Below, one piece after another: positions 25,911 through 52,247 of a stretch of DNA of 64,000 nt. This DNA comes from Hymenobacter sp. 15J16-1T3B (lineage in GTDB: Bacteria > Bacteroidota > Bacteroidia > Cytophagales > Hymenobacteraceae). The notes beneath the pieces were generated by a model. That model saw nothing but the letters and a program-made list of their open reading frames with translations, searched no databases and was not told where the DNA came from. Position numbers and translations under genes: made by a program. Numbering within the stretch: position 1 is the stretch's first letter; every line of letters starts with the position of its first letter. Location: assembly GCF_020711235.1 (NCBI RefSeq), contig NZ_JAJFAV010000002.1:186001-250000 (forward strand), read 5' to 3'.

Positions 25911-25951
25911 GCCTGATTTAATGTATGCAAGTTATATACATTAAATCAGGC
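25911..25951 (-). promoter_or_regulatory. Late element copy 1, extended 16-bp palindrome
   Basis: Core 25918-25944: arms TTAATGTAT / ATACATTAA around GCAAGTTAT as read on the plus strand. Here the arms extend to 16 bp (GCCTGATTTAATGTAT). On the minus strand it is followed by TTTTCGC, so this copy could also terminate the upstream 779-aa gene, whose stop is 3 bp away. The fibre gene ATG is 21 bp beyond the core. Confidence 0.75.
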
Positions 25952-25954
25952 TTT

Positions 25955-28294
25955 CTACGCGCCCCGCAGTTTTAGGAAGCCGCCGGTGCCGCGCAGCACC
26001 AGCAGGTTGTCGCCCTCGGGCAGCACCGGGCCCGCGTCGTCGCCGTTGCCCGCGCCCAACCAGTCGAGCTGTTCCAAGGCCACTTTGCCGCTGGTGAGCG
26101 GGTAGACGGTCTGGTCGGCCGCCTCGTAGGGTTCCTCGGCTTGCACCCGCACGCCGTTCACGCGCAGCCAGTCCAAGCGGCACGCCACGAACAGCTTCTC
26201 GTGCAGGTATTCCGGCACCTCCATCGTTTCCAGCAGGATTTTGCGCTGCGCCGTCGAGCTGATGACCGTCGGCACGTTGGTGGAGTTGCGGTGCACGGCC
26301 AGCGTGCCGGCGGGTTTGCGGCGGAAAAACACCCCGTCGACGCGCAGCCGCGGCGTGATGCCGGTGGTCCACACCATGCCGAAGCAGTTGTCGCGGTTGC
26401 GGTATTCCACCAGCACCGTGTTGGGGTGGGCGTCGGCCACGCGCAGGGGCTCCGAGTTGGCCACCGCGTCGGCCCAGCCGTTGCGCGTGGCCCGCACCCG
26501 CACGGTGTATTCGCCGTCGGGCAGCGCGGCCCAGTCGAGCGGCACTTCCCACACGTCGAAGCCCGGGCCGCCCAGGTCCCAGCTGGCGGTGACGTCGCCC
26601 CCGGGCGCCGCCCACGGCCGCTGCAGCACCAGGTACGGCGCTCCCGTGGCCGCGTCCTGGCCTGTGCTGCGCACCCGGTAGGTGCCGGCCGCGCCGCCGG
26701 CCAGCACCACGCGCGCCGCCCGCAGCAGGGTGGCCGGCAGCGCCGCGTCGGCGGTGGCGGGGCTGTCCAGCCGGGTCCAGCCGTCGCCGGTGTCGCTCAC
26801 CGCCACGGCCAGCGGCGCGGCGGCGCCGGTGAGCTGCTGCACGCGCACGCCGCTGGCCGTGGCCACCTGCTGCCCGTCGCCCCAGCGGCGCACTGACGCC
26901 GACACGGCCGTGTAGTTGGTCAGCACCTGCAGCGGGCCGCCGTCGCAGCGCGCCACCTTCTGCACGTAAAGCGGCCGCACCTGCTGGCCCGGCCGGGTCT
27001 GCTGGCAAAACAGCGTGTTGTCGAGCGTTTCGAAGGTCAGGCAGTTGTCGGGCGCTTCCTCGACGACCAGGCGCAGGCTGTTGAGCAGCGGCACCGCAAA
27101 CACGGGCGTCACCACGGGCGGGGCATACACGCAGCTGCCGTCGTCGGCCGTGGCGCCCGGGGTGGGGTTGGTGGCGTTCGGGTCGGTGCAGCCCCACACG
27201 GCCAGGGCGGGTACCAGCACCGGGGCGTCCACCACCTGCGCCGGCGAGCCGCTGTCGGTGGCGCGCAGCGTGTAGCTGCCCGGGGCCAGGGCGAAGGTGA
27301 GCGTGCCGGCGCTGCCGCGCTGCTGCTGGGCCCCGGTTTGCACCACGGCCACCGTGACGGGGTAGGTGCCGCCGCCAACGGTGGCCACCGCAGCCCCCGC
27401 GCCGCCCGCGGCGGCCGGGGCCTGCCCCGCGGCCGTGAGCGTCAGCGGGGGCACCGTGCAGCTGGGCGAATTGGGCGTCACCTGCACCGCGGCAAAGGGC
27501 GCTTCCAGGCTGGCCAGCAGGTCGACGCGGGTGGTGCCCTCGCAGAACTGGGTAATCGGTTCCCCGGCGGCCCGGCCGCGTTGCGCCGCGGTCAGCACGT
27601 CCTGCACCGCGCCGCCGGCCGGATCGAGGGCCACGGTCACGCGCCGGCCGTCGGCGTCGCTGACGTAGTAGAGGAACACCTCCACGTCGTCCACGGCGAA
27701 GCTGTCGAAGTACCCCGTCGGCGGGCCGGGCGGATCGGTGCGCACGATGTTGAACGCGGCCTCGGCGCGGCAAGGCGTGCCGCCGAGGCCCGCGTCTTTG
27801 AGGTAGACCACGTGCGCCCCGGCGGGCAGGCTCTCGGTGGGAAAGGTGATGCCCCCGGTCACGTCGGCCGGTACGTACGTGCCGTTGATGCCGGTGATGG
27901 AAAACTGCACCGGGCCGTGCGTGGTGGCGGGGGCCGCAACCGTGACCTGCTCCGAGGCCTCGTCCCAGGTGGCCACGCCGGCCACCAGGTCGCAGCCGGC
28001 CGGCGGCGCGGCGCAGGCGGCGGCCGTGGGGTCGACGGCCACGTCCGCGTACGGCGCCTCGTGCAGGGCAAACAGCGTCACGCCGTCGGAGCCCTCGCAA
28101 AACGAATCGACCACGTCGCCCACGCCGTAGGGCCAGCCGCCGTCGGGCGGGCCGGTGGCCAGGTCGGGTTCGATGCTGGCGTCCGGGTCGATGGCTTCGG
28201 TGGTGGCCACGACGGCGCGGGGCAGCGACTCGTTGTATTGGACGAGGCGTTGCAGGTTGGCGGCTTGCCAGACGAGGTAGAAGAGGGGGCGCAT
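25955..28294 (-). CDS. Phage baseplate/tail structural protein
   Basis: 779 aa from ATG 28294, which overlaps the previous stop by one base (TAATG). The N terminus is MRPLFYLVWQAANLQRLVQY. Two similar modules follow (VDSFCEGSDGVTLFALHEAP and TQFCEGTTRVDLLASLEAPF), then Ig-like beta domains with Pro/Ala-rich linkers and a C-terminal region with YRNRDNCFGMVWTTGITP and YLHEKLFVACRLDWLRVNGV. Located after the hub-like 726-aa gene and before the fibres, hence probably a baseplate or upper fibre component. No enzyme motif. Confidence 0.65.
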   Translation of the reverse strand: MRPLFYLVWQAANLQRLVQYNESLPRAVVATTEAIDPDASIEPDLATGPPDGGWPYGVGDVVDSFCEGSDGVTLFALHEAPYADVAVDPTAAACAAPPAGCDLVAGVATWDEASEQVTVAAPATTHGPVQFSITGINGTYVPADVTGGITFPTESLPAGAHVVYLKDAGLGGTPCRAEAAFNIVRTDPPGPPTGYFDSFAVDDVEVFLYYVSDADGRRVTVALDPAGGAVQDVLTAAQRGRAAGEPITQFCEGTTRVDLLASLEAPFAAVQVTPNSPSCTVPPLTLTAAGQAPAAAGGAGAAVATVGGGTYPVTVAVVQTGAQQQRGSAGTLTFALAPGSYTLRATDSGSPAQVVDAPVLVPALAVWGCTDPNATNPTPGATADDGSCVYAPPVVTPVFAVPLLNSLRLVVEEAPDNCLTFETLDNTLFCQQTRPGQQVRPLYVQKVARCDGGPLQVLTNYTAVSASVRRWGDGQQVATASGVRVQQLTGAAAPLAVAVSDTGDGWTRLDSPATADAALPATLLRAARVVLAGGAAGTYRVRSTGQDAATGAPYLVLQRPWAAPGGDVTASWDLGGPGFDVWEVPLDWAALPDGEYTVRVRATRNGWADAVANSEPLRVADAHPNTVLVEYRNRDNCFGMVWTTGITPRLRVDGVFFRRKPAGTLAVHRNSTNVPTVISSTAQRKILLETMEVPEYLHEKLFVACRLDWLRVNGVRVQAEEPYEAADQTVYPLTSGKVALEQLDWLGAGNGDDAGPVLPEGDNLLVLRGTGGFLKLRGA

Positions 28295-30474
28295 TAGCGG
28301 GGGAGTAAGGGAAGCAGGGCTGCGCAGGGCAGCAGGTCGAAAGAGCCGAGCGGGCCGTCGTCGCCCGCGGCGCGGTGCTTGAAGTCGCTGATCCAGCCTT
28401 CGTGCCGCTGGCCGTATTGGTCGCGGAAGCGGACGCGGCCGCGCGGGTTGCGCAGCAGCGCGGCCACCTGCTCGTGGCGCACCGGCGCGGTAAACGAGTA
28501 CTGCTCGGGCCGCCAGAGCGGGGCGCCCAGCTCGGGCACCGGCACGTCGCCGTTTTCCGCCACGGCGGCGGGTTCGGCGGCCAGCCGCGTGCGCAGCGCG
28601 TTGTTGCCTTCCCCGGCGGCGAAGCGCAGGGCCCGGCGCCGCTGCGGCTGCAAGCCGGCGGCCAGCACCGGGCCGTGGGCGCGCAGGATGCGGCCCGGGC
28701 TCAGGCGCAGGTTGTAGGCGGTCGAGGGCGAAAACAGCCCGGTGACCTCGGCAAAGCGCTGGTTGCGCTCGGTTTCGAAGCCGTCCGCGGTGCGCAGCAC
28801 GCACACCAGGTAGTTATCGGCGTCGGCCCCGGTGTCGGTGGTCGAGGTGGCGTCGTAGCGCTGGCGGCGCGTCAGCTCCAGGTGAAAGCCCGACGCCACG
28901 TAGCTGCTCAGCTGCGAGTAGGTTTGCTCGGTCTGGGTCAGCGGGGTGGCGTAGGTGCGCTTGGCGTTGAACTCGTCGAGGCCGTTGACCTGGCCCGTCT
29001 GCCACTTCTGGTAGCCCACCTCGGCTTTGATGAAATGCCGGTCGAGTAGCGTTTTGGTGCTCAGCTGCACTGGTTCGAGCAGGTCAAGCACCACCTCGTC
29101 GCTGTACCAGTACGCCAGCGGCTCGACGCGCACCACCTCCTGCCCGTCGGGCAGGCGCTCGACGCCGCAGCCCACCGCGTGCACCGCCTGCAGCGAGCCG
29201 AACAAGTCGCGCCACGTCGTCACCAGCGGCTTGACGGCCAGGGGAAAGCCGCGCACCTGGAAGCCCGAGGCGGTGAACAGCAGGCTGCCCGGGCCGTCGG
29301 CCGGGTAGGCGGGGTACGTGTCGGTGCGCCCGAAGAACGCGGAGCGGAAGGCCGTGCCGCGGTCGGTGATGGCCTGCGCCACGCGGTCCAAGGCCTCGTA
29401 GATCAGCAGGCCCTGGCACGGGGTCGGCTCGGTCTGCGAGGCCGCCTGCATCGTGAAATAGGAGCCCGGCTGTTCGTTGAGCTTGATCGGAAACGAGTAG
29501 TTGCCGAGGGCGTTGGGGTTGATGTCGTGCACCCACACGTCGGCGTAGAGAAAGATCCGGTCGGCGATGGCCAGCGGCCGGGTAAGCTGGAAGCGGGCGG
29601 TATCGAGGTCGACGCGGTAGGTGCCGCCGATGTTGGTGGCCCGGATGGTGCGCAGCACGACGGGCGCTTCGTCGTTGATGCGGAAGCACACGTCCACGTC
29701 CACCTTGTCGAAGTCGCCGTTTCCGTTGCCGTTGCGCTCCACCACCAGTTCCGCCCGGATCTGCGTGTCGAAGTCGAACACGCCGCTTTCCTGCGTGGTG
29801 TAAATGGGGACCAGGGGCGAGAGGTTGCCGGCGGGCACCGTCACGGGGCCGCCGAAGACCGGCTGCAGGTCGAAGTCGTTCACCTCCGGGCCGCTGCCGA
29901 AGCCGAAGTACAACGTCTGCCGCCGGCTTTCGCTGTCGTTCACCACGTTCTGCCCGCCCGGCTGGGCCGGGTCGGGCTGGCGGATGTCGTAGCGCTTCAC
30001 GACGGCCCGCGAGTGCAGCTGCAGCGTGCGGGGCGTGAGCGGGGCCAGGGCCCGGCCGTTCACCGACTCGTTTTTAAAGAGGTCGACCGGCGTTTCGGCC
30101 CGGTTCAGAAACGACTGCGTGAAGCCGAGCTTTTCCAGGCCGCAGCGAAACTCGGTCGCCGTTAGCTGCCGGCTGCCGAAGTCGAAGCGGGCCCGGTAGT
30201 ATTCCTCCCAGAGAAACGAGTTGGGGTCGAAGTACTCGATCAGGGCCGTCACGTCGGCCTCGATGCCGCCGAGTTGGTATTCGCGCTCCAGGTACCGCCG
30301 CGCCTCCTTCAGCCAGCCGAAAGCGTCGGTGTACTCGCTGCTCAGGCCGTGCAGCACCGGGTCGCGGTGCAGCGTCAGGCCCAGGTCTTCCCAGCCCTCC
30401 GGGTCGGTGTCCAGCGTCAGCGCCGCTTGGTTGGGGCTGATCAGGGTGAAGCGGTAGCGGGGCGCGTTCTGCAT
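28294..30474 (-). CDS. Phage tail/baseplate protein, hub-like by position
   Basis: 726 aa. The N terminus is RYRFTLISPNQAALTLDTDP and EGWEDLGLTLHRDPVLHGLS; the middle is beta-rich (ELVVERNGNGNGDFDKVDVD, PLAIADRIFLYADVWVHDIN); near the C terminus FTAPVRHEQVAALLRNPRGR and VRFRDQYGQRHEGWISDFKH. In siphoviruses the large genes after the tape measure encode distal tail and hub proteins; the position fits but no family is certain. First gene after late element copy 2 (10-bp spacing). Confidence 0.65.
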   Translation of the reverse strand: MQNAPRYRFTLISPNQAALTLDTDPEGWEDLGLTLHRDPVLHGLSSEYTDAFGWLKEARRYLEREYQLGGIEADVTALIEYFDPNSFLWEEYYRARFDFGSRQLTATEFRCGLEKLGFTQSFLNRAETPVDLFKNESVNGRALAPLTPRTLQLHSRAVVKRYDIRQPDPAQPGGQNVVNDSESRRQTLYFGFGSGPEVNDFDLQPVFGGPVTVPAGNLSPLVPIYTTQESGVFDFDTQIRAELVVERNGNGNGDFDKVDVDVCFRINDEAPVVLRTIRATNIGGTYRVDLDTARFQLTRPLAIADRIFLYADVWVHDINPNALGNYSFPIKLNEQPGSYFTMQAASQTEPTPCQGLLIYEALDRVAQAITDRGTAFRSAFFGRTDTYPAYPADGPGSLLFTASGFQVRGFPLAVKPLVTTWRDLFGSLQAVHAVGCGVERLPDGQEVVRVEPLAYWYSDEVVLDLLEPVQLSTKTLLDRHFIKAEVGYQKWQTGQVNGLDEFNAKRTYATPLTQTEQTYSQLSSYVASGFHLELTRRQRYDATSTTDTGADADNYLVCVLRTADGFETERNQRFAEVTGLFSPSTAYNLRLSPGRILRAHGPVLAAGLQPQRRRALRFAAGEGNNALRTRLAAEPAAVAENGDVPVPELGAPLWRPEQYSFTAPVRHEQVAALLRNPRGRVRFRDQYGQRHEGWISDFKHRAAGDDGPLGSFDLLPCAALLPLLPR

Positions 30475-30483
30475 CGGGCGAGA

Positions 30484-30512
30484 GTTAATGTATGCAAGTT
30501 ATATACATTAAC
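30484..30512 (-). promoter_or_regulatory. Late element copy 2
   Basis: Arms GTTAATGTAT / ATACATTAAC (10 bp each) around GCAAGTTAT. The outer end contains the TAA stop of the upstream 261-aa gene, so element and gene end are fused. The core ends 10 bp before the ATG of the 726-aa gene. Confidence 0.75.
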
Positions 30513-31293
30513 GCACCCCCGCCGCCTCCCTGCCGCGCTCAAACTTCTGCTGCAGGTAGTCGACCCGCGTTTCGAACTGAAACACGGTCAGCAGCTCCGG
30601 TTGCGGCGTGCCGTGGTCGGCCAGGGTGGCGCAGAGGTGGCCGAAGCTGCGCCGCATCTGCTGCACCACGTTGGCCGGGGCGCCGTCGTCGAAGCACGGC
30701 GGGCGCTGCTGGTCCAGCAGCCACGCGTCGACCTGCGCCACCACGGCCAGGTGCTCGGGGGCCTCGGTGGCCAGGTAGTCGCACACGGCCAGCAGCCGCC
30801 GGCGCAGCTGCTGGGCCGTGGCCAAGCCCTGGGCGTCGTCGCCGTAGCGCTGCGGAAAGGCGGCGCTCAGTTCAGACTGGACTTTTTTTTTAACGGCGTC
30901 GACCACCTCCTGCACGTGGCCCACCGTCAGGCCCAGCCCGTCGAGCCGGGCCAGCAGGGCGCGCAGGCCGGCTTCGCTCAGGTCGGTGGCGGGTTCCCCG
31001 TCGACCGCGGCCACGAGGCACCCGAAGGCCAGCGAGTTGGGCGCGAAGCGGTCGACGGCGAAGTCGTGCGCGTACTGCAGATTGGCCGCTTGGTCGATGG
31101 CGTCGTCGACGCGGCCGGCGGCCAGGAACTGATGCAGCTGCGCAAAGTGGCGGCTGATGGCTCCGTCGTCGCCGCCGATGCCGGTCTCGTAGAGGCGGTA
31201 CACCTGAAACTCGGCGTGGCGCAGTACCGGCAGCTCGTGCATGGATTCGTACACCGAGATGGTGTGCGGGGCGGTGAGGGCGAGGGTCTTCAC
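30508..31293 (-). CDS. Phage tail-region hypothetical protein
   Basis: 261 aa, soluble, mostly helical (LHQFLAAGRVDDAIDQAANL, LRALLARLDGLGLTVGHVQE, QQLRRRLLAVCDYLATEAPE). ATG overlaps the upstream stop (ATGA). It lies between the tape measure cluster and the baseplate genes. A role in tail assembly is possible from place; nothing in the sequence identifies it. Confidence 0.6.
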   Translation of the reverse strand: MKTLALTAPHTISVYESMHELPVLRHAEFQVYRLYETGIGGDDGAISRHFAQLHQFLAAGRVDDAIDQAANLQYAHDFAVDRFAPNSLAFGCLVAAVDGEPATDLSEAGLRALLARLDGLGLTVGHVQEVVDAVKKKVQSELSAAFPQRYGDDAQGLATAQQLRRRLLAVCDYLATEAPEHLAVVAQVDAWLLDQQRPPCFDDGAPANVVQQMRRSFGHLCATLADHGTPQPELLTVFQFETRVDYLQQKFERGREAAGVR

Positions 31294-31873: not shown

Positions 31874-32148
31874 TTCCAACGGCGCCTATTACCCATGTAG
31901 CCCCGGTAGGGCTCGGGCGTAAACTTGGTATATGCCGACATGCCCAGCGTATCGAGGTTGATACTCTCATGTTGCTCTAGAGCTAACTCGGCGGCTGTAA
32001 TTCGGCTAGGCTTATTCTCAATCGGTAGTTGACCGCGAGCCTCAGCCTCTTTGGCTGACATCATTTCCGCGTCTTGATGCTTGAGAGCCATCAGAAGGGA
32101 AGAATGGGCTAACACGCCCATCGAGCAGATTATAGACAGTCGTTTCAT
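31870..32148 (-). CDS. Small exported phage protein
   Basis: 92 aa from ATG 32148, overlapping the tape measure stop (TAATG). The N terminus MKRLSIICSMGVLAHSSLLM looks like a signal peptide or membrane anchor. The rest is polar (KHQDAEMMSAKEAEARGQLP, FTPEPYRGYMGNRRRWK). Function unknown; an exported small protein directly behind the tape measure is unusual. Confidence 0.5.
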   Translation of the reverse strand: MKRLSIICSMGVLAHSSLLMALKHQDAEMMSAKEAEARGQLPIENKPSRITAAELALEQHESINLDTLGMSAYTKFTPEPYRGYMGNRRRWK

Positions 32149-35100
32149 TATCCATTGCGCCGGTGGCGCCGGTTGACGTAGTGGGTCCAGCTGTCGCCTT
32201 GCTTCACCCATTCTTCCAGCCCGCGCGGGCCGAGGTGGTAGTGGTATTCCGGGCGGGACGCGAAGGCCTTAGCCAGGGCCTGCTGGTCGCCACGCATGCC
32301 GTTCACGGCGGCCAGCAGGGCAGGAGACTCCGCCACGGGCACCACGAGGCGTTGCAACGAGTCGGCGCCCTGTTGCCAGCCGGCGGTGTAGCGGCGGTGC
32401 TGCCAGCGGTCGGCGTCGAAGTCCGGGGCCCGTAGCAGGCGCTCAGTGTCGGCGTTGGTGTGCACGGTGTCGCCTTGCTTCAGGTGCACCACCGAGGGCT
32501 TGTCGATCAGCTGGGCCCCGCCGGAGCGGCCCTCGATGATTTCGCGGCCCCGGTCGCCGACGATGGCCCATTCCTCGGGGCCGCCCTGACGGCCTTTCCA
32601 GTACTGCGGCAGCGGCTTCGAGGCAATGGCCGCGGCCTGCGCCAGGCCGGCGGCAATCACGACGGCCGAGAGAATGCCTGCCGTCACGCCGAAGTCGGCG
32701 TAGCGCGTGCCGCCGCCCGTGCTCAGCACCGACGTCACGGCCATGGCCGTGTTCAGGCCCACCTGGAACAGCGCGGCCGTTTTGTCGGCCTTCGCCTGCT
32801 TGCGGCGCATGGCCAGCTCGCGTTGCCGGTACCGTTCCTCGATCTGGGCTTTCAGCTCGGCGTTTTCGCCCGCGTTTTTCAGCTCGAAATCCTTCTGCAG
32901 CGTCAGGTTCTGCAACTCCTGCTGCCGGCGGTTCTCGCGGATCTGGAAATACGACGACGCGAAGCCCTCCACGGCCGAGAGCCCTTCTTGAATCAGGTCG
33001 GCGCGCTCCTGGTTGAGGCGCTGCATCTCGGCAATCTGCGCGTCGGTGTTGGCCTTCGTGTTGTCGAGCTGCTGCTGCAGGGCCTCCCGCTGCTTGGTCG
33101 TGTCCTTGGCGTAGTTGCGCTGCTTTTCTTCGTTGAACTTGCGCTCCAGCTCGCGCCGCTCCCGGTCGTATTGCCGCTCGGTCAGAATGCCCGCCTTGCG
33201 GCTGTTTTCCAGCGCCAGCTGCGACTTCAGGTACTTCTGCTCCAAGTCTGCGTTGGCGAAGTCGGCGTTGAACGGTCGCACCGCTGCCAGGATCTGCGTG
33301 CGCTTGGCCTGCAACTCCTGCTCGATGCGGGCCAGCTCGACGGCGTCGCCCTTGGCCGCCCGCTTGCGCGCCTCAGCTTCGATTTCGGCCAGCTCGATGC
33401 GGCGGGCCGCGCCGTCCAGCACAGCCTGCTGCCGCTCCTGCTGGCTGCGCTGTTCATCGCCGACAACTTGGTCCAAGGCCTGCAGCTCGGTGTCGATGAT
33501 CAGCCGGTCGATTTCCGAAAGCTGATCCAGCAGCGCGTTGTGCAGGGCCAGCAGCTGCTGGTCGCCGTCGCGCTCGATGCCGAGCTTCTTGCGGCTGAAT
33601 TCCTCCGTCAGGCGCACGCGCGCCACCTGCGCGGCCCGCTCGCCGCCCACTTGGTCCTTGTAGGTTTTGACGGCCTGCCGGATCAGTTCGTCGCGCTCCA
33701 GCGCGGCCAACTCGATGCGGGCCTGGGTGGCTTTGCGGATGGCTTCGGTGCGCAGCGCCTCGGTGTTGGCCGGGTTGCCAGCTTGCCGGTCCAGATCGGC
33801 CACGCGGGCTTCCAGCCGGGCTTTGGCCAGCTCGTATTGCTCGCGGGCGAGGTCGGCTACCGACTGCTTTTTCTTCTTGTCGGCCTCGACGCTGTCGTCG
33901 GTGGCCGCCTTGTCGTCCTGGGTCGCCTGAATCAGGTAGGTGTAGGCGCCGGCCGCGTCGAGGCCGAGGCGCTTGAGCTGCGCCAGCACCTTGTTGCGGT
34001 TGGCGTCGGCCACGGCCGCTTGGTTGGCCGCGCCTTGCGCCTGCTGGGTCAACTCGACGTACTGCTGATACGCCTGCAGCGTGGCCGGGCTCAGGGCACC
34101 GGCCGACCGGTCGTAGGTGGCGGGTGTCTTCGCCCGCTGGGCGGCCTGCCCGCGCAGCACCGCGTCGAAATCCTGCCCGGGCTGCAGCTTCACCTGGGAC
34201 TTGACCAGCCGCTCGCGCGCGGTGGCTTCCTCCTGAATGGCCAGGGCTGTGGCTTCCGACCGGGCCTTCTCGTCGTCGAGGGCTTTCAGGCGCTTGGCCA
34301 GGCCCACCACGGCTTCCTGGTACGAGGACCGGGTCGCGCCGAGGTTCTTGCGCACGGCCAGCGTGTTCAGCTCCCACTGGCCGGTCTGCTGGTTGAGCAC
34401 GACGGCTTCTTCCCCCAACCGGGTTTTGAGCTGCAGCACGGTGTCGCGCAGCTGCCGCTGCTGCGTCAGCGTGGGGTTGAGCACGCGGCGCAGGGACTCG
34501 TAGCGCGCCAGCAGCATCTCGGTGCCGTCGGCCGACTTTCGCAGGCCCAGCGCTTGCGTGGCCAGGCTGCTGCCGAAGTCGTCCACGGCGGGCTTGGTGA
34601 GGCCCAGCAGCCGCGGAATGGCGCCAAAACCCTCTTTGAAATTGAGCCCGGCCCGGGTCATGTCGATGAACCACTTCAGCGCCTGGCCACCGGTGCCGGA
34701 GCTGAAGAAGTTGCTCACGTCGTTCTTGAGCTTGTTCCAGGAGCCGGCCAGGTTGTTGTTGACGATGGCCGCTTCCTTGCCCAACGAGGTGCCGCGCGCC
34801 AACTGGTCGCTGGCAATGGCCTGCTTGTCGCTGAGCAGCTCCACGTTCTGGGCCAGCGTGGTGATGACCGACTTGGCCTCGCCCGACTGCAGCTTCAGGG
34901 TGCCGAGCAGGCCGTTGAACTTGGTGGTTGAGGTGCCGCCTTCGCGCAGCCCGCGCAGGAACAGCGTCAGCGCCGCCTGAAAATCGGTGTTGATGAGGCG
35001 CTTGAACTCGGTCAGCGTCAGGTTCGACTGCGCCAGCTGGGCAATCTTAAACGAGGCCTCCGTGCGGGTGCTCAAGGTGTTGAACAGCCGGTTGAGGGCC

Positions 35101-36632
35101 GTGCCCGAGGTTTCGGCGTTGAAGCCGGTTTCCTGCAGCACGGCGGCGTAGGCCAGCACGTCTTTCAGCCCCAGGCGGGCGTTGGCCGCCACGGCGCCGG
35201 TGCGCAGCGCCACGTCGGTGAGAAACGGCGCCGTGGCCGCGCCCGAAGCGGCCAGTTCGTTGACGGCCGACCCGATCAGGATGATGTTTTGCGCCTGGTC
35301 GGGCCCGAGGTTCTTGCGGAACACGGTGCTGATCTTGCCCAGCTCGGTGGCAATCTGCTCCGCCCCGCCCGAGAAGTCGTCCTCCAGCGCCTGCGTGGCC
35401 ACGTCGATGGCCTTGGTAAAGTCCTCGATGTCCTTGCCGGCCACGCCGAGCTGGCCGGCAACCTTGGCAATGTCCAGCAGGCCCTGCAACGACGTGCGGG
35501 TGTCGATTTTCTTCAGGTTTTCCGCCAGCTGGTCGGTGGCCTCGGAGGTGAGGCCGGTCGTTTTCCGGACGCTGGCCAGCTGGTCGCTGTATTTAGCGTT
35601 GGCCTCGAAAATCTGCGTCAGGCCCGCCAGCAGGCCGGTGATGCTCAGATAGGTGCCCAGCAGGGTCTGGCTCAGGTTGGCGGCCCCGCCGGCCATGATG
35701 CCGGTGGCGTCGCCGCCTCTCTTAGCGGCGACGCCATAGTGCTGGAGCTGGCCGGTGACTTTGGTCAGCTCCGTTTCGGTGCGGTCGATTTCGGCCCGCA
35801 GCTTCTTGTACTGCTCGGCCGACAGCCCGGTAGCGTTGTTCTGCAAGCGCAGCGCCTGCAGCTGCTGGGTCAGGGCCGCTTTCTGCTGATTGAGCGCCTG
35901 CGTGGCCTCGATGATGCCGCGGGCGTAGGCGCCGACTTCCCGAAAGTTCTGGTTCAGCTCCCGGTCGAAATCCTTTAGCTGCTGGGTGTTGGCGTAGAAC
36001 TGCGCCTTCAGCTTCTGGGCTTCCTCGCTGGTGTTGTCGAACCCGCCGGGCAGCGCCTTGATTTTGCGGCCCAGCTGCTCGGTGGCCAGCGAGAGGTTGT
36101 TGTAGCTGCCGAGGACGGCCGTGTACGTCGAGTTGGCACCGCGCAGCGCCCGGTTGAGCTGCTCGGTGTCGTTCTTGTATTGCTGGATGGCCAGTGCTGC
36201 TTTGGTGGCGCGCTCGGCATCCTTGGCGTCGAAGGCTGCGCGCAGCTCGCCCTGCAGGCGCTTCAATTCGCTGGTGGCCTGCTTGGTCGCATCCGCCACC
36301 TGCTTGCGCACGGTGGCTTGCCCGGCCTGCGCCTCCTTCAGTTCCTGGTACTCCTTCGCCAGCTTGGCCACCTGCTGCGTCAGGGCTGCAATCTGCTGCT
36401 GGTCCTGCTTGTTGGCCACGTTGGCGCTCTGGCCCTGCTGGCGCAGGCCGAGCAGGGCCGTGTTGACTTCCTTCAGGTTCGCGGCCAGCCGCGGCGCATC
36501 GGCGTCGAGGTTCTTGGCCAGGGCCCTGTAGTTCCGGTTCAGGCCCTGCACCTGCTTAATGAATTCGGCCATCTCTTGGGCCCCCGGGCCCAGTTGGTCG
36601 AATAAGTCGTCGTATCTAACCGGATTGGCCAT
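32148..36632 (-). CDS. Tail tape measure protein
   Basis: 1494 aa. Sets siphovirus tail length and is ejected with the DNA; at the commonly used 0.15 nm per residue this predicts a tail near 220 nm. A long N-terminal coiled coil (about 1-300, Gln/Leu/Lys-rich) is followed by the TP901-type core (QLGVAGKDIEDFTKAIDVAT, ATAPFLTDVALRTGAVAANA, DVLAYAAVLQETGFNAETSG), then a second charged coiled coil (to about 1270), a hydrophobic segment (FGVTAGILSAVVIAAGLAQA) and a C-terminal region with EEWAIVGDRGREIIEGRSGG. No lytic transglycosylase domain seen. Late element copy 3 lies 10 bp before the ATG. Confidence 0.92.
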   Translation of the reverse strand: MANPVRYDDLFDQLGPGAQEMAEFIKQVQGLNRNYRALAKNLDADAPRLAANLKEVNTALLGLRQQGQSANVANKQDQQQIAALTQQVAKLAKEYQELKEAQAGQATVRKQVADATKQATSELKRLQGELRAAFDAKDAERATKAALAIQQYKNDTEQLNRALRGANSTYTAVLGSYNNLSLATEQLGRKIKALPGGFDNTSEEAQKLKAQFYANTQQLKDFDRELNQNFREVGAYARGIIEATQALNQQKAALTQQLQALRLQNNATGLSAEQYKKLRAEIDRTETELTKVTGQLQHYGVAAKRGGDATGIMAGGAANLSQTLLGTYLSITGLLAGLTQIFEANAKYSDQLASVRKTTGLTSEATDQLAENLKKIDTRTSLQGLLDIAKVAGQLGVAGKDIEDFTKAIDVATQALEDDFSGGAEQIATELGKISTVFRKNLGPDQAQNIILIGSAVNELAASGAATAPFLTDVALRTGAVAANARLGLKDVLAYAAVLQETGFNAETSGTALNRLFNTLSTRTEASFKIAQLAQSNLTLTEFKRLINTDFQAALTLFLRGLREGGTSTTKFNGLLGTLKLQSGEAKSVITTLAQNVELLSDKQAIASDQLARGTSLGKEAAIVNNNLAGSWNKLKNDVSNFFSSGTGGQALKWFIDMTRAGLNFKEGFGAIPRLLGLTKPAVDDFGSSLATQALGLRKSADGTEMLLARYESLRRVLNPTLTQQRQLRDTVLQLKTRLGEEAVVLNQQTGQWELNTLAVRKNLGATRSSYQEAVVGLAKRLKALDDEKARSEATALAIQEEATARERLVKSQVKLQPGQDFDAVLRGQAAQRAKTPATYDRSAGALSPATLQAYQQYVELTQQAQGAANQAAVADANRNKVLAQLKRLGLDAAGAYTYLIQATQDDKAATDDSVEADKKKKQSVADLAREQYELAKARLEARVADLDRQAGNPANTEALRTEAIRKATQARIELAALERDELIRQAVKTYKDQVGGERAAQVARVRLTEEFSRKKLGIERDGDQQLLALHNALLDQLSEIDRLIIDTELQALDQVVGDEQRSQQERQQAVLDGAARRIELAEIEAEARKRAAKGDAVELARIEQELQAKRTQILAAVRPFNADFANADLEQKYLKSQLALENSRKAGILTERQYDRERRELERKFNEEKQRNYAKDTTKQREALQQQLDNTKANTDAQIAEMQRLNQERADLIQEGLSAVEGFASSYFQIRENRRQQELQNLTLQKDFELKNAGENAELKAQIEERYRQRELAMRRKQAKADKTAALFQVGLNTAMAVTSVLSTGGGTRYADFGVTAGILSAVVIAAGLAQAAAIASKPLPQYWKGRQGGPEEWAIVGDRGREIIEGRSGGAQLIDKPSVVHLKQGDTVHTNADTERLLRAPDFDADRWQHRRYTAGWQQGADSLQRLVVPVAESPALLAAVNGMRGDQQALAKAFASRPEYHYHLGPRGLEEWVKQGDSWTHYVNRRHRRNG

Positions 36633-36642: not shown

Positions 36643-36669
36643 TTAATGTATGCAAGTTATATACATTAA
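36643..36669 (-). promoter_or_regulatory. Late element copy 3
   Basis: Exact 27-bp core (TTAATGTAT, GCAAGTTAT, ATACATTAA), 10 bp before the tape measure ATG and directly downstream of a leftward terminator hairpin. Confidence 0.78.
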
Positions 36670-46161: not shown

Positions 46162-46202
46162 ACTGAGTCCCGTTCAGTTGGGTAGATAAGAGGGTGAGAA
46201 AA

Positions 46203-46622: not shown

Positions 46623-46672
46623 GCGGGTGGGGAGTCGCTATGGTGAAACACACTGCTCACGGCGGGGAAAGT

Positions 46673-46713
46673 GGGCCGGCCCCGGTTCATTCCCCACCGT
46701 GTGGGGCCGGCCC
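46673..46713. terminator. Hairpin in head operon
   Basis: 11-bp perfect stem GGGCCGGCCCC with a 19-nt loop and no T-run. Possible RNA-processing site between the 231-aa and 139-aa genes. Confidence 0.5.
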
Positions 46714-46732
46714 TGACGACGTGCTAAGTCGC

Positions 46733-47428
46733 CTATTCCTGTTTGCTGCGAAGGGCCTCTTCGGCTTCGATGAGCGTCTTGAGCTCCGTGAAGCTCTTAT
46801 CGGCCGGGGCATCGACACCAAACAGCTCTTTGTAGCGAGCCTGCGCGTCGGCGGTGCTGCGCAGCGCCTTGCGGGTGGGAGTGTCACCCTCGCCGCTGGC
46901 TTCCGGCTCCGTGGTCTGCTCGTCGCTGTCGGCCTCCGCCGCCCGGATGAACTCGATCAGGATGTCGTACTCCACGGCTGGGGCTTTGCGGCCCGTCAGC
47001 TGCTGGTAGCGCACCTGCGCGTCTTGCAGCGTCGGCAGGCCCTCAACTGGCTCCCAGGGCTTGTTGCCCGTGGCCGGGGCCTCCGCTTTCGCGCCAGCGG
47101 CCCGGCGCGGGTCGTGCAGCACTTCGACCTTGTCGTAAGTCTGGGTGTCGAAGTAGTTGTTGGCGACCATCCGGTCGTACTGCGCCGGCACCAGCTTGAT
47201 GACGCGGGTTTCGTCGACGTACTCCTTTTTGGTCGCGTCGTTCACGCGCTGCGTCACGCGCACGTGCACCCGGTCAGCTTCGTGGGTCGGCAGGTCGTAG
47301 TCGGCGCCCTCGGCGGTGTTGCCTTTCTGGGTGTCGAGGTCTTCGCCGTCGAGCTGCTTACGCTGCAGTTCCTGCAGGTCGATTTTCGGGCGCTTGGCCG
47401 CCTTGGCCGTTTGGGATTGGAGGGACAT
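46733..47428 (-). CDS. Head-region hypothetical protein with paired repeats
   Basis: 231 aa, highly charged. Contains two similar motifs, LQDAQVRYQQLTGRKAPAVE and TADAQARYKELFGVDAPADK, each followed by a helix (ILIEFIRAAE, FTELKTLIEAE), so the C-terminal half is an internal duplication of about 50 residues resembling a SAP-like or peptide-binding helical hairpin. Its start overlaps the portal gene by 71 bp. Role in head assembly unknown. Confidence 0.6.
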   Translation of the reverse strand: MSLQSQTAKAAKRPKIDLQELQRKQLDGEDLDTQKGNTAEGADYDLPTHEADRVHVRVTQRVNDATKKEYVDETRVIKLVPAQYDRMVANNYFDTQTYDKVEVLHDPRRAAGAKAEAPATGNKPWEPVEGLPTLQDAQVRYQQLTGRKAPAVEYDILIEFIRAAEADSDEQTTEPEASGEGDTPTRKALRSTADAQARYKELFGVDAPADKSFTELKTLIEAEEALRSKQE

Positions 47429-49163
47429 AGGAAAGTAAGATTTGGGTGATGGCTTCCAGCTTCAGGTGATAGGGCTGCCGGGACGCGAAGCGCGTCACCG
47501 GCAGCTGCTCGGACTCAAAGCGCGTCAGGTAGCGGCCGAAGTCGGCCTTCAGCGCCACCAGTTGCGGCGTGAACACGGCTCCGAACACGGCGGGCTGTTG
47601 CTCCAGCAGCGTCCCGATTTGCTCCAGCGAGTACTCAGGGAAGGGCTCCAGGTCCGAGAGGATGCGCATGCGGTCGAGCAGCGCGGGGTTGGTGCGGTAC
47701 TCGGTCTGGTAGCGCTGGTCGCGGGCCTGGCTCAGCTCGTAGACCGGGCGGCCAGCCTTGCGGGCTTCGGCCTCCTGGGCGCTGAGCTGCTCGGGCGTCT
47801 TCAGGTACCACTGCTCGCCCAGGTTGACGTAGGCCGAGCGCATCAGCGCGCCGTAGCGCAGCGTGCCGCGCACCTGCAGCGCCCACTGGCGCGCTGCTTC
47901 GAAGGGGCGCTTGAACCAGGTGAGCACGTCGGTTTTCGACTCGAAGCCGGCCGCCACCTGGTCGCGGTTCTTGGCCTGCGCGTTCTGCGGCTCCGTGTCG
48001 CTGCCGAGGCAGGCAGTGATGATCTGCTGCATCCGCGCCTGCTGGCGCTCCTGGATGTAGCGCAACACCTCCGGATCGGCTGACACTGTGCCGATGGGGT
48101 TGCGCGTGTCGGGCAGGTCTTTCGACGGGGCCGGTACTTGCACTTCCGTGCCTGGGCCGATGAGCTTGCGGGCCTTGCAGACGGGGCATTCCCGTTCGCC
48201 ATAGATGGGCACCTCGCGGCCCTCCAGCATCGTGGTAGCCTTCAGGTAGGGTACCATGCCGCCGTTGCAGTGGGCGCCGTCGGGCGTCTGGTAGTCGCAC
48301 TTTTCCTCGAACGACCACCACACCGGGAACACCCCGTAGCTCTCGTAGTACTCGATGGCGGTGTCCCACCACACGAAGCGGTCAAGCTGGGCCAGTTGCT
48401 TGGTCAGGGGCCCGCGGCGGGGCAAGGCCGTGGCGCCGCTCAACGGCTCCGACCACAGCATGCGTGCCGGGCAGGAGCCCAGGATGTGGGCGTTTTCCAG
48501 CACCACGCGCCATTCGTCTTCGTCGGTGCGCTTCTCGCAGATGCGGTAGAAGTCGTCGTCGTAGGCGGCAGCCCGCTCGATGACGGTGGCGCCCTCCTGG
48601 CGGCTGGGCAGCTCAAACAGCAAGTATTCGCAGCTGCTATCGGTTCGCAGCTCCACGTCGATGACGCTGGCCACGTTCAGCACGAACACGTAAGGCTCGG
48701 GGTAGCGCGTGGTCTGCTCGGTGGCCATATCCACTACCAGCAGCGAGTGCGGGGCCTGACGCACGGCGCGAAACGCCTCACCAGCCCAGAAGGCATCCTC
48801 GCGCTGATCTGTGCGGAACTGCTCAAAGTCGGTTTCCAGCTCGGGCGTGGCCAGCTCCACCTGCACCAAGCCGTCCTGCGCTTCGAAGACGCGGGAGAGG
48901 CCCGTAAAGACAGCATCGACGATTTCCAGCGTGGCCAAGGGCCATTCCAGGTGGTCGAGCATCTTCTGGTACTTATCCAGCGGCAGGCGGGCTTCCCAGC
49001 GCTTGAGCAACTGCTTCAGGCCCACCGGCGGCTGGTCGCCGTCGACGCAGGGCACGGCGTGCAGGCGGATGCGCTCTTCGTGGCGGACGCACGCAGCAAT
49101 GTCGGCCCCGTTGGCGGGGGCCTTGAGTAGTGCCTGTACTTGTTGCTGGGAGAGCCGGGCCAT
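47358..49163 (-). CDS. Portal protein
   Basis: 601 aa from ATG 49163. Forms the dodecameric DNA gate at one capsid vertex. It lies directly between the terminase/201-aa genes and the scaffold/capsid genes. It has long helical C-terminal parts (RYIQERQQARMQQIITACLG, RDQVAAGFESKTDVLTWFKR) and PFEAARQWALQVRGTLRYGA. Unusually, the middle contains a zinc-ribbon-like pair: CDYQTPDGAHCNGGMVPY and, about 25 residues later, GERECPVCKARKLIG. Called by size, position and helical pattern. Confidence 0.75.
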   Translation of the reverse strand: MARLSQQQVQALLKAPANGADIAACVRHEERIRLHAVPCVDGDQPPVGLKQLLKRWEARLPLDKYQKMLDHLEWPLATLEIVDAVFTGLSRVFEAQDGLVQVELATPELETDFEQFRTDQREDAFWAGEAFRAVRQAPHSLLVVDMATEQTTRYPEPYVFVLNVASVIDVELRTDSSCEYLLFELPSRQEGATVIERAAAYDDDFYRICEKRTDEDEWRVVLENAHILGSCPARMLWSEPLSGATALPRRGPLTKQLAQLDRFVWWDTAIEYYESYGVFPVWWSFEEKCDYQTPDGAHCNGGMVPYLKATTMLEGREVPIYGERECPVCKARKLIGPGTEVQVPAPSKDLPDTRNPIGTVSADPEVLRYIQERQQARMQQIITACLGSDTEPQNAQAKNRDQVAAGFESKTDVLTWFKRPFEAARQWALQVRGTLRYGALMRSAYVNLGEQWYLKTPEQLSAQEAEARKAGRPVYELSQARDQRYQTEYRTNPALLDRMRILSDLEPFPEYSLEQIGTLLEQQPAVFGAVFTPQLVALKADFGRYLTRFESEQLPVTRFASRQPYHLKLEAITQILLSYVPPIPNGQGGQAPENRPAGTAA

Positions 49164-49177: not shown

Positions 49178-49375
49178 TTAGTCGGTGGATTCGGCAGCAT
49201 TCACCGGCTGCCAGTCGGTCTGGCCGCGCTCCTGCTGCCACTTCAGCAGCCGGGCGGCGTGGTCGGGGGTGAACTCGCGTTCTACCCCCAGCTGCTCGCA
49301 GCGAAGCACCACCACGGCGGGCGTGGCGGGCTTCGGTGCAGCGGTGGGTTTGGCGGGCTTGTGCACCTTAGTCAA
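49178..49375 (-). CDS. Small phage protein
   Basis: 65 aa. The basic Ala/Pro N terminus (TKVHKPAKPTAAPKPATPAV) is followed by VVLRCEQLGVEREFTPDHAA and RLLKWQQERGQTDWQP. It overlaps the upstream 201-aa gene by 8 bp and ends 14 bp before the portal ATG. Likely a small head or connector factor; not recognised. Confidence 0.55.
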   Translation of the reverse strand: MTKVHKPAKPTAAPKPATPAVVVLRCEQLGVEREFTPDHAARLLKWQQERGQTDWQPVNAAESTD

Positions 49376-49973
49376 GGTCTACCAGCGGGTTGAAGCTCGG
49401 CTGCAGCAGTTGCACGCCCTTGTACCAGCCGCCCTTCAGCGAGAAGCCGAAGGGGATGATGGTTTCGGCGCGGAAGCCCTCGGAGCCCGGGTCGGCCACG
49501 TAGAAGTTGGCCAGCGGAATCGGGCCCAGGTCGTTGTGCAGAATGGCGCCGTCCTGGTTGAGCAGGTAGGCGCCCAGACGCTCGACGCCGAGGGCGGCGT
49601 CCGACTCGGTGCTGAACTGCTGCATCTGTTCCCAGATGGCCGACTCTAAGCCCACGAAGCGGCCGGTCGGCTTCACCGAGTTCAGGCCCGTGAACTTGCC
49701 CATGCCGTTGAGCGAGTTGTTGTCGTTCTCGTTGATGAACGTCGGCTCGCTGGGCGGAATCACGAAGCCGGTCGTGAAGGGCGACAACACCACTTTGGTG
49801 CTATCAGCGGCGGCCAGCAGCGGGGTCCATGCCGCCAGGGTCTTCATCTCCGCCTCGGTTGCGAACTTGAAGCCCAGGCGCTGCAGAATGATCCGCTGAA
49901 TCTGTTTGAAGTCGATGGGGCAGTCCTGCTTCGAAACGTTCGAGAGGGCCGCCGGCCGGGTGCAAGTAGCCAT
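49368..49973 (-). CDS. Phage structural protein, possible tail tube subunit
   Basis: 201 aa. Opens its own transcription block (late element copy 4), which suggests strong expression. KVVLSPFTTGFVIPPSEPTF, GKFTGLNSVKPTGRFVGLES, IPLANFYVADPGSEGFRAET and TIIPFGFSLKGGWYKGVQLL suggest a beta-barrel structural protein. No other gene for the major tail protein is evident in the usual place before the tape measure, so this one is a candidate; a capsid decoration or head protein is equally possible. Confidence 0.5.
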   Translation of the reverse strand: MATCTRPAALSNVSKQDCPIDFKQIQRIILQRLGFKFATEAEMKTLAAWTPLLAAADSTKVVLSPFTTGFVIPPSEPTFINENDNNSLNGMGKFTGLNSVKPTGRFVGLESAIWEQMQQFSTESDAALGVERLGAYLLNQDGAILHNDLGPIPLANFYVADPGSEGFRAETIIPFGFSLKGGWYKGVQLLQPSFNPLVDLD

Positions 49974-50006: not shown

Positions 50007-50033
50007 TTAATGTATGCAAGTTATATACATTAA
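50007..50033 (-). promoter_or_regulatory. Late element copy 4
   Basis: Exact 27-bp core; the flanks TGATT / AATCA extend the palindrome imperfectly (one extra T). Lies 33 bp before the ATG of the 201-aa gene and 19 bp after the terminase stop. Confidence 0.78.
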
Positions 50034-50052: not shown

Positions 50053-51651
50053 TCAGTTTCGGCGCCGCATAAATCCTTGCACGGCCACCGGCCGCAGCTC
50101 GAACCACTCCCGCATCATGCCGGTGTCGCCGAAGTCGGGGGAGCGGCCGCCGAGGATGATCTTTTGTTCCTCCTTGGTGTTGATCTGCTTCTTACCCTCG
50201 CTGTCGGGGTTGCGGCGCTTCACCGCCCGCAGGTCGGCTTTGAGCAGGTCGATGACGGTAACGACCTTGCCGCCCATCTTCAGCTGCTTGGTGCGCACCC
50301 CGTCGATGAGCACGTTGTCGTTGGTGATGGAGTACTTCACCTCGCCGCGGTTCACCCGCTCGGCGAAGCGGTAGTAGCACTGGGTCTTCAGGTTCGCATA
50401 CGCCTCGCGTACGCCCGTCACAGGGTCGGCCAGCGCCTGCGCGCCGCCGCTGAAACCGTTGTAGGTGGCCAGCTTCAGCACCCCGCCACCCACGCCGTCC
50501 TGGTCGATGAGCACGTCCGAGGCGGCCACGTTCCAGCGCCGCCGCAGCTGCTCGATGGCCTCGAAGATTTCCCGGTTCTCGCTTTTGCGCTGCACCACGA
50601 TGTCGACCACTTCCCAACCCACCCAGACCTTTATGACGCACAGGTCGCGGCCGAAGCCGGCGGCGTCGCAGGTGATGCAGCGCAGCGGGCGGGCCTCCGC
50701 CGGCGGGAAGTTGGTAAACAGGTCGTTGATGCGGGCGTAGTCGAACAGGGCCAGCCCGTCGATCTTGATTTTCCAGTTGCCGTCGAGCAGCTGCGCCCGG
50801 GTGGCTTCGTCCTGGGCCATGAGGTTGCCCAGGTAGCCGGGGTCGACGGTGAGCAGCGCCTGGTTGTCCCAGATCTTGCCTGGGATGAAGGTGAACGACT
50901 TGGGCGGCACGTCGGCCAGCGGGCCCACGAACAGATGCGGGGCGCGCTGGCGCACCTCGTCGGGCGAGTCGCCCCACACGATGTTTTCCCCGTCGCGGGT
51001 GAAGTAGCGCAGCACGCCGGCGCGCTCCGGGATGGGGAAGCCGTAGTTCGGGTTGGGCGTGGCGCCGTCGGGCAGAAACTCTTGCTGGTCGATGTACCAC
51101 TCAATCAGCGAGGCGACCCAGCTGTCGGGTTCGGGGTTGCAGGTGGCGCGCACGTAGGGCCGCACGCCGCAGGCCGAGCGGTTGCGGGTGAGCATGTACC
51201 AGAACTGGCGCTCGGTGAAGTGCGTCAGCTCGTCGAAGCCGATCATGGGCACCTGGGAGCCTTGCCAGTCGTAGATGCTGCCCTCGTGCTGCAAGTGGCG
51301 GAAGCTGACGCGCGAGCCACTGCGGAAGGTGTAGTCGGTGTTGTTCTCGCGGCCGCGGGCGCCCACGTTGGGGTACAACTTGCCCGCCGTGTCCCAGAGG
51401 CCGCCGGCGCTCATGATCTGCGGGTAGGTGCGGCGGAAGATGACGGCTTCGAAGTCGGGGTTGAACTGGTGGCGGCTGGCCTCCATCAGCAGCACGAACG
51501 ACTTGCCGGCCCCGGCCGCGCCGCCGAGGATGGCAATGTCGGCGGCGGTGGCCAGGGCCTTGCTCTGAAACCCCGGCTGCGGGTAGATGCCGGGCGGCTT
51601 TTCGTGCGGGGCGTTGGTCTTTCCGGCCTTGATGAACTTAGTCCCGGCCAT
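50053..51651 (-). CDS. terL: Terminase large subunit
   Basis: 532 aa DNA-packaging motor. ATPase domain: Walker A AILGGAAGAGKS (residues 40-51), Walker B VPMIGFDE (Asp140, Glu141), coupling motif RATCNP (168-173). C-terminal RNase H-like nuclease: Asp329 in CITCDAAGFGRD, and Asp383/Asp385 in VLIDQDGVGGGV. Length is normal. Overlaps terS by 14 bp, so translation is coupled. Confidence 0.95.
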   Translation of the reverse strand: MAGTKFIKAGKTNAPHEKPPGIYPQPGFQSKALATAADIAILGGAAGAGKSFVLLMEASRHQFNPDFEAVIFRRTYPQIMSAGGLWDTAGKLYPNVGARGRENNTDYTFRSGSRVSFRHLQHEGSIYDWQGSQVPMIGFDELTHFTERQFWYMLTRNRSACGVRPYVRATCNPEPDSWVASLIEWYIDQQEFLPDGATPNPNYGFPIPERAGVLRYFTRDGENIVWGDSPDEVRQRAPHLFVGPLADVPPKSFTFIPGKIWDNQALLTVDPGYLGNLMAQDEATRAQLLDGNWKIKIDGLALFDYARINDLFTNFPPAEARPLRCITCDAAGFGRDLCVIKVWVGWEVVDIVVQRKSENREIFEAIEQLRRRWNVAASDVLIDQDGVGGGVLKLATYNGFSGGAQALADPVTGVREAYANLKTQCYYRFAERVNRGEVKYSITNDNVLIDGVRTKQLKMGGKVVTVIDLLKADLRAVKRRNPDSEGKKQINTKEEQKIILGGRSPDFGDTGMMREWFELRPVAVQGFMRRRN

Positions 51652-52198
51652 TGTCGGGCAGGTAGATGTTGGAGCCGGGCTCGGGCAGGTCCTTGCCGTT
51701 GGTGGTGTGGTCGAGGCGCTGCACCACCTGGCCGCGGATGGCCTGAATCTGCTTCACCGCGTCCTTGGCGTCGTGCAGCTCGATGGTGGTACGGATTTCC
51801 TCGCGCTCCACGTCCTCCATCCGAATGATGGTGCGCGTCTGGGTGGCCTTCCGGATCAGGTGGTAGTGTCGTTTGGCCGCGTCCGTGCTCAGGTTGATGG
51901 CCATGGCCCCATCCTCGGTCACGCTCAGGAAAGGCGACATGGTGCCGCGGCCCCACTCGGTCATGCGCAGCAGCGCTTCGGTGCTGGACATGGTCAGCGG
52001 CTCCATGAACTTCTGCAGGTAGTCCAGCACGGCCGGGTCGCGTAGCAGGTGGTAGGCCTGCTGCCGGGCCGATTTCGGCGCGTAGCCCGCGCGCTCGGCC
52101 GCTTTCGCGCCGTTCCAGTCTTTCACGTACTCTTCTACGAACCGCTTCTTCTTGGCCGCGAGCGGCTTCGGTTGCGCATCTGGCTGTCCCGTGGCCAT
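51638..52198 (-). CDS. terS: Terminase small subunit
   Basis: 186 aa. The N-terminal helix-turn-helix pattern KKKRFVEEYVKDWNGAKAAE and RAGYAPKSARQQAYHLLRDP is the terS DNA-binding motif (Terminase_2-like). Central helical oligomerisation part (VLDYLQKFMEPLTMSSTEAL) and an acidic C terminus. First gene after late element copy 5. Recognises the packaging site, probably nearby. Confidence 0.9.
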   Translation of the reverse strand: MATGQPDAQPKPLAAKKKRFVEEYVKDWNGAKAAERAGYAPKSARQQAYHLLRDPAVLDYLQKFMEPLTMSSTEALLRMTEWGRGTMSPFLSVTEDGAMAINLSTDAAKRHYHLIRKATQTRTIIRMEDVEREEIRTTIELHDAKDAVKQIQAIRGQVVQRLDHTTNGKDLPEPGSNIYLPDNGRD

Positions 52199-52222
52199 GG
52201 CACCTCAACTTGTAATGAAAAG

Positions 52223-52247
52223 TAATGTATGCAAGTTATGTACATTA
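52223..52247 (-). promoter_or_regulatory. Late element copy 5 (one mismatch)
   Basis: Arms TAATGTAT / GTACATTA around the invariant GCAAGTTAT, 24 bp before the terS ATG. The right arm carries one change (GTAC instead of ATAC). Confidence 0.72.

Follow-up and report, generated by a model that had tools for sequence, protein, structure and literature searches.

The window analysed here is a 64,000-nucleotide stretch of the genome of Hymenobacter sp. 15J16-1T3B (contig NZ_JAJFAV010000002.1, positions 186,001 to 250,000, forward strand), and the subject is a 27-bp palindromic element that stands at the heads of late genes in a prophage. The window holds four exact copies of the 27-mer and one with 2 mismatches out of 27, all within the prophage and all in one orientation, on the minus strand like the genes that they head. 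Copy 1 (25918..25944) heads a 570-aa gene in the fibre position (24184..25896), copy 2 (30485..30511) heads the gene of a 726-aa virion structural protein, here g726 (28294..30474; phrog_15220), and copy 3 (36643..36669) heads the tape measure protein gene (TMP; 32148..36632). Copy 4 (50007..50033) heads the gene of the 201-aa major head protein (MHP; 49368..49973; phrog_8193), and the variant copy 5 (52222..52248) heads the terminase small subunit gene, terS (51638..52198), which is followed by terL (50053-51651). The gaps between element and start codon are, in coordinate order, 21, 10, 10, 33 and 23 bp. A first-pass annotation had described five copies, alike in orientation and 10-33 bp before start codons, and this was borne out; the 25-bp stretch that it had given for the fifth copy contains one of the two changes. 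Its statement that all copies lie between genes holds for four of them, and copy 2 overlaps the final 4 nt, including the stop codon, of the upstream 261-aa gene. The gene labels stood for terS, the tape measure and the virion structural proteins, which matched PHROGs/Pfam families, whereas "fibre" denotes position only, the 570-aa protein having no match in PHROGs or Pfam.

The repeat is particular to these places. None of 100 dinucleotide shuffles gave five matches to the 27-mer, and the central 9-mer GCAAGTTAT occurs in the window at these five places only (0.13 expected). When up to three mismatches were allowed in a 25-bp core, the five window copies were the only matches in the 6,334,101-bp host genome. 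The same search returned no match in any of 57 other genomes, and an IUPAC scan of IMG/VR with the window 25-mer returned none; scattering of the 27-mer through host genomes, the observation that had been named as speaking against a phage late signal, was thus not seen in the organism's own genome, in the 57 others or in IMG/VR. The arms are perfect over 9 bp in four of the five copies and pair at 7 of 9 positions in the fifth, so the sites are not asymmetric in the way that stoperators are. The arms of copy 1 reach 19 bp and the repeat is then followed by T, as in a terminator, and a terminator-like hairpin lies directly upstream of copy 3.

Related prophages carry their own version of the element. 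A portal search of 204 Hymenobacteraceae genomes found nine related prophages besides the window's own, seven close and two distant (~25% identity), and alignment to IMG/VR found five loci, of which L058 and L060 were new, where a portal search with the single protein gave none. When repeated AT-rich words were counted region by region, G117, G095, G154 and G103 showed the repeat, G123 and G082 showed shorter 12-mers of it, and G109, G124 and G087 showed no trace. Alignment shows the relatives' repeats to be dyads of 27 bp that keep the register of the window copies. We counted 47 elements from nine phages (the window's, G117, G095, G123, G082, G154, G103, G109 and the IMG/VR contig L060), scanning for a core TA, a core TT and palindromic arms; for the ten elements of G103 and G109 the anchoring pattern also fixed positions -10, -9, -6 and -5, and the other 37 were chosen without regard to these. 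Heads were assigned by orthology, except the fibre heads of the relatives and the terS of L060, which were assigned by position or leader sequence. In total, 41 of the 47 elements head terS (9), MHP (8), TMP (8, one of them a fragment), g726 (9), the fibre-position gene (5) or tRNA-like arrays (2), and the remaining six head unassigned genes. The core GTAnYTTRC is common to the phages and the palindromic arms differ between them. In G117 and G095, TMP runs against most late genes, and the element at its head is inverted along with it.

Further elements lie outside the 47: three in L058, at roughly the terS, MHP and g726 places; one in G109 at 53433; one in L060 at the MHP position; and eight in the phages G084, G067, G142 and G108 described below. 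Core matches away from late heads were found in G067 (29097), G142 (30275) and G108 (34957), twice in L060, and four times, without arms, in G103 and G109. The g726 gene of G067 has no full element, and terS of G108 and G142 is preceded by degenerate matches only. Six whole phage records, out of 79 with a related portal, were scanned (Croceibacter P2559S and P2559Y, Elizabethkingia TCUEAP2, Parabacteroides PDS1, Bacteroides vB_BfrS_23 and Alistipes AS73P1) and contained no multi-copy dyad of this type; two of them had between them four isolated palindromes centred on TA/TT. In the IUPAC scan of IMG/VR, TGTATGTAYTTTACATACA occurred in eight stretches, six of them from two records matching the G095 and G117 prophages; the other two showed no similarity to window proteins in the stretch at hand, and one of them has a TTG at spacer 21, a spacing taken up below. 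The form TGTNCGTAHTTTACGNACA occurred as single copies in 14 stretches, two of which (L115 and L119) have weak similarity to g139.

Read on the late strand, the core (TAACTTGC in the window) would occupy the place of the host sigma-A -7 box, TAnnTTTG. A study of Flavobacterium johnsoniae (PMC6847099) describes this box as TAHHTTTG, whose first T is at -12 and whose final G is at -5. By that numbering the predicted start falls on base 23 of the 27-mer, and the palindrome would span about -22 to +5. For copies 1 to 5 the predicted starts are 25922, 30489, 36647, 50011 and 52226, with predicted leaders of 15-38 nt; the predicted -7 box of copy 1 is 25927-25934, on the minus strand. T-12 A-11 and T-8 T-7 are present in 47/47 elements, TA and TT having been search criteria, and in the 37 elements whose -10 and -9 bases played no part in selection, G never occupies either position. 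In 19 of the 47 elements a TTG, which was not a selection criterion, lies ahead of the core TA at a spacing of exactly 21 nt; other spacers have counts of 0-3 (6 to 53), 4 (spacer 5) and 6 (spacer 54). This TTG is present in 19 of the 37 elements outside G103 and G109, in none of the ten within them, in one of the five window copies (copy 4) and in none of eight in the four further phages, and the additional L060 element at the MHP position also has it. It precedes six of the eight MHP genes as well as TMP, g726, fibre-position and three unassigned genes. Terminator-like hairpins lie upstream of 12/47 elements by a loose criterion, and in several phages the T-tract of such a hairpin supplies the TTTG. 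Furthermore, three TMP genes, one in G095 and two in G117 (one of these a fragment), have an ATG whose A falls on the predicted start.

In the host genome TTTG-N-TAnnTTTG has 99 occurrences and the reversed pattern 36, and the commonest N is 19-20 (42/99). The elements resemble this Bacteroidota sigma-A promoter (-33 TTTG, -7 TAnnTTTG) in their TAHHTT core, in the absence of G at -10 and -9 and, in 19 of 47, in the TTG at fixed spacing, and they differ from it in having mostly RC in place of TG at -6/-5, in the want of that TTG in 28 of 47, in a spacer of 21 rather than 19-20 and in a box that lies inside a palindrome. The first-pass annotation had called the sequence near but not equal to the host box, which agrees with these data. 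Its proposal of a late promoter at each block head gains support from the position of the copies, their orthologous placement in relatives, their flipping with inverted modules and the spacer-21 TTG of 19 elements.

The arms, in turn, look like an operator. They are nearly constant within most phages and different between phages (TTAATGTAT, TATTGTATGTA, TAATGTTTGTA and TATTGTTGTGTA among others). Pairs 8/20, 4/24 and 2/26 stay complementary through two-sided changes more often than shuffled partners, both in the terS group and in the group of other elements; pair 6/22 shows such an excess in the non-terS group only, and no covarying-pair excess was seen in G103/G109. In the seven terS copies, pairing continues past the 27-mer, which was not a criterion, with frequencies at three further positions of 0.71, 0.71 and 0.86 against 0.29, 0.37 and 0.63 for shuffled partners. 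A half-site scan of 80-84 kb in seven phages gave matches at late heads and a few stray singles, one of them in the early region of the window. Early control regions contain other palindromes, with 13-16 paired bases in the window, G117 and G095 and weaker ones in G123, G082 and G103. The earlier judgement that the element is not a plain operator did not stand as worded: the arms look like a phage-specific operator for a dimer, laid over a promoter and tracking a small helix-turn-helix (HTH) protein.

This candidate regulator is a 115-aa HTH protein encoded past the window end (L042:2064-2411, plus strand). At the right end of the prophage, the S24 repressor (L042:765-1697, just past the window end), a superinfection-immunity protein and the 115-aa HTH lie in a row and in the same direction, and they may share an operon. 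The HTH was found in all eight dyad phages profiled and in neither of the two phages without the dyad (G124 and G087). Four of the 16 families profiled, namely the HTH, a helicase-loader-like protein, the small protein g85 and the S24 repressor, occur in every one of the eight dyad phages, and the first three have no member in G124 or G087. An AlphaFold2 model of the HTH (pLDDT 84) has an XRE fold, and its Foldseek matches include ClgR, C.BclI, 434 Cro and P22 c2 at probabilities of 0.96-0.99, but with E values of at least 0.08; its match to Pfam HTH_3 (E 0.0021, 18.5 bits) is under the cut-off of 23.

HTH distance correlated with arm distance across eight phages better than that of any other of 21 proteins (r 0.62, Mantel p 0.001). 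Across 12 phages, r was 0.64 for arm positions 1-10 and 0.72 for positions 4-10, compared with 0.38/0.47 for terS, 0.31/0.45 for g726 and 0.10/0.17 for TMP. Given these three proteins, the partial r of the HTH was 0.57/0.61 (0/5000 permutations as high), whereas given the HTH the partial r of terS, TMP and g726 fell to between -0.13 and 0.15. The partial r was 0.48/0.43 when the fused HTH copy of G084 replaced its late-region copy. The S24 repressor was omitted from the 12-phage test because it is not whole in all 12.

A family search with the HTH alone gave matches in 17 of the 204 genomes at E 1e-5, eight of which are the known phages. Five new neighbourhoods were read, and the weak or partial matches in G161, G035, G005 and G189 were left out. 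Four of the five are new phages (G084, G067, G142 and G108) that lack a portal match but have related terS, TMP and g726; in each of them the core precedes two of these three genes. The fifth, G105, is a remnant in which the HTH gene is interrupted and no window late protein was matched nearby. In an order-level sample, the HTH was found only in Hymenobacteraceae (7/390 genomes at E 1e-8).

In G142, G108 and G084 the HTH forms the second domain of a CI-type repressor. A single frame in G142 and G108 encodes a CI-type HTH, then the candidate HTH, then a tail without an S24 match, and in G084 an XRE domain, a linker and the candidate HTH are joined in one frame. These two-HTH prophage repressors, none with an S24 peptidase match (L099:14399-15277, plus strand; L101:10233-11141, minus strand; L089:1323-2066, plus strand), stand divergently beside a Cro-like gene, which is the place of the prophage repressor. 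An AlphaFold2 model of a fused repressor (pLDDT 38) was too poor for use. Apart from its two-headed repressor, G108 has at 30326-31084 (plus strand, L102) a gene that joins a transposase-like HTH, recognised by eye, to an S24-type domain.

Taken together, the five copies are best explained as late promoters that each carry a superimposed repressing operator, a reading to which we assign a probability of about 0.6. That they are promoters with an operator, whatever the mode of control, appears highly probable, and on that premise repression would be the likely mode, since repression in the lysogen accords with where the dyad lies and with the HTH being fused to repressors. The small XRE-type HTH is probably the reader of the arms. 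Each late block would then be its own transcription unit. A dimer of a phage protein, for which the HTH downstream of the S24 repressor and the superinfection-immunity gene is the best candidate, would read the arms and in the lysogen would cover the -7 region at every late promoter. Upon induction, the HTH would be lost, or titrated by replicating phage DNA, and late genes would come on after early ones. More tentatively, lysogeny may be kept by two DNA-reading heads, an HTH at the early promoters and a co-evolving HTH that silences each late promoter through the palindrome over the -7 box; some phages would encode the heads as separate genes and others as a single two-headed repressor, and the arms would set a phage-specific late immunity. 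Such an arrangement resembles the lambda, P22 and 434 repressor-operator systems in the modelled XRE fold and in a palindromic operator over the core promoter, and differs from them in being directed at every late block. In lambda-type phages, late genes are controlled by an antiterminator and not by direct repression.

Several observations weigh against this interpretation. As regards the regulator, the S24 repressor too occurs in all eight dyad phages, the head protein nearly equals the HTH in arm correlation across eight phages (0.60 vs 0.62), and the Mantel tests are approximate, resting on 8-12 related phages. The HTH gene does not always lie beside the repressor: in G067 it lies downstream of g726 among the late genes, as does a copy in G084 that accompanies the fused one, and the G103 gene (L034:7537-7866) is at the prophage end, far from the repressor, from which integration seems to separate it. 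HTH_17 proteins are present in 7/8 dyad phages and 4/4 further phages, which also counts against the rejection of HTH_17 described below, and the test that detected early-region palindromes gave none in G154, G109 or G087. The presence of HTH_17 in all four further phages and the patchy occurrence of early palindromes lower the odds of the HTH as reader and of the two-headed arrangement. As regards the element, the constancy of TA, TT and arms is partly by construction, and G103 and G109 keep the core with weak arms, the outer parts being barely palindromic. The TTG at -36 to -34 is missing in 28/47 elements (18/37 of the main set and 10/10 in G103/G109), in 4/5 window copies and in 8/8 sites of the four further phages. 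T-6 or G-5 occurs in 0/37 freely picked elements, where -6 is always a purine and -5 is C (32 elements), A (3) or T (2), and in 0/10 of those fixed by the anchor. Early control regions, by comparison, contain TTTG in 9/9 phages and the full TAnnTTTG in 4/9 (window, G154, G109 and G087).

Lacking T-6 and G-5, the late promoters do not simply reproduce the host consensus. This lack is the main fact in favour of activator dependence, in which a phage activator, either this HTH or a different phage protein, would bind the dyad and enable host RNA polymerase to work from a -7 box without TG. A plain repressor site need not remove TTTG, so an activator or an altered specificity is conceivable; the elements without a -33 TTG point the same way. 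The HTH copies after g726 in G067 and G084 could amplify themselves, and together with the missing TG they would allow activation or dual action. Activation nevertheless seems rather unlikely, as the dyad covers about -22 to +5, where a bound protein normally blocks polymerase, as the HTH lies beside or is fused to the repressor in most phages and as, the S24 repressor aside, no other profiled regulator occurs in all eight dyad phages. Control of elongation instead of initiation has a precedent in mycobacteriophage L5, whose lysogeny repressor halts elongation at stoperators without a promoter. The sites described here share with these that they are short, intergenic, many and of one orientation relative to transcription, which they follow in 5/5 window copies and in the flipped modules of G117 and G095, and the fused repressors of G142, G108 and G084 recall a repressor with two DNA-binding domains. 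In L5, however, stoperators are asymmetric 13-mers bound by a monomer and are also found in promoter regions, and the repressor binds early promoters too (PMC9283540). The elements here are palindromes at late heads, the half-site scan did not find them at early promoters (the stray early half-site in the window aside), and the TTG at fixed spacing and the start codons at the predicted start fit initiation; a stoperator-like role is therefore very improbable.

Equally improbable is that the element acts as RNA, as a hairpin in the 5' leader or a terminator. The stems of 9-19 bp, their extension by paired changes in the terS copies and the T after copy 1 would suit such a role, but the centre is asymmetric and conserved in sequence, a start codon can fall inside the right arm (TMP of G117 and G095), and terminator-like hairpins exist separately, upstream, in the 12 cases noted above. 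The hairpin promoters of bacteriophage N4 likewise have a hairpin-capable repeat near -10, and the arms here are much longer. The least credible alternative is a recombination site that shuffles late modules. Late modules are indeed inverted or moved between relatives, and the inverted g726 pair of G117 is alike from the element onward; however, the window copies are all direct, so that recombination would delete structural genes, the arms differ between phages, flipped elements track gene direction, and the two G117 g726 copies, at 72% identity, point to no recent event. By this weighing, late promoters under direct repression through their own operators remain the favoured explanation of the five copies.

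Other potential regulators were considered and set aside. The HTH_17 protein (window 61829-62194) does not occur in G103, does occur in the dyad-less G087 and gave r 0.22 (six phages). The XRE protein at 53250-53534 has no relative in nine other phages. Arm correlation was r 0.33 for the S24 repressor and r -0.04 for the Cro-like protein (six phages). A gene of ~145 aa beside the terS of relatives reads, by eye, as an HNH nuclease. PDS1 has an annotated "sigma factor" directly upstream of its terminase genes, and no RNA polymerase was named among the scanned phage proteins, which were not all open reading frames.

The prophage probably extends from the 3' end of a tRNA-Asn gene (15060-15074) to a 15-bp repeat at L042:2474-2488, ~2.5 kb past the window end; a second repeat of equal length also came up in the comparison of attachment sites, and the site is thus likely rather than proven. 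Upstream of the tape measure gene lies a cargo block (37016-40149, plus strand) with a 559-aa protein, which has a marginal secretion-tail match, and two further proteins; some relatives carry other inserts near this spot. A SocA/Panacea-domain antitoxin-like protein is encoded inside the late region (40590-41150, minus strand).

Several features of the relatives were noted in passing. G117 has a second, inverted g726 with its own element (late coordinates 26537-28839 and 44747-48075; L017, L018), and another of its elements goes with a short 5' fragment of TMP. The elements at late coordinates 24520 of G123 and 27276 of G154 seemingly head tRNA-like arrays, recognised by eye, between head and tail modules. 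At terS, most relatives have a similar leader, roughly CATTACTTTTCNTTACC, directly after the element. The two phages that lack the 115-aa HTH have late palindromes unrelated to the dyad, as read from L037-L041, L050 and L051: in G124, GTTAAAGTATTACTTTAAC occurs twice and a close form once at late genes (late coordinates 33439, 35754 and 49446), and in G087, GTAAAGTATTAGTTTAC occurs at terS and, inverted, at TMP. Some of these stand beside TAACTTTG or TATATTTG, which are better host -7 boxes. These phages may thus more generally place a dyad close to the -7 box of their late genes.

We found no description of late-gene control or late promoters in temperate phages of Bacteroidota in the open-licence papers searched. 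The analysis defines a promoter-operator, predicts start sites and names a candidate regulator, and the natural variants of arms and HTH offer a ready test of binding specificity. The repressor fusions show a route by which a two-headed phage repressor can evolve. If the late promoters are silenced singly, the order from early to late expression could follow from loss or titration of a lysogeny protein, and no late activator would be needed.

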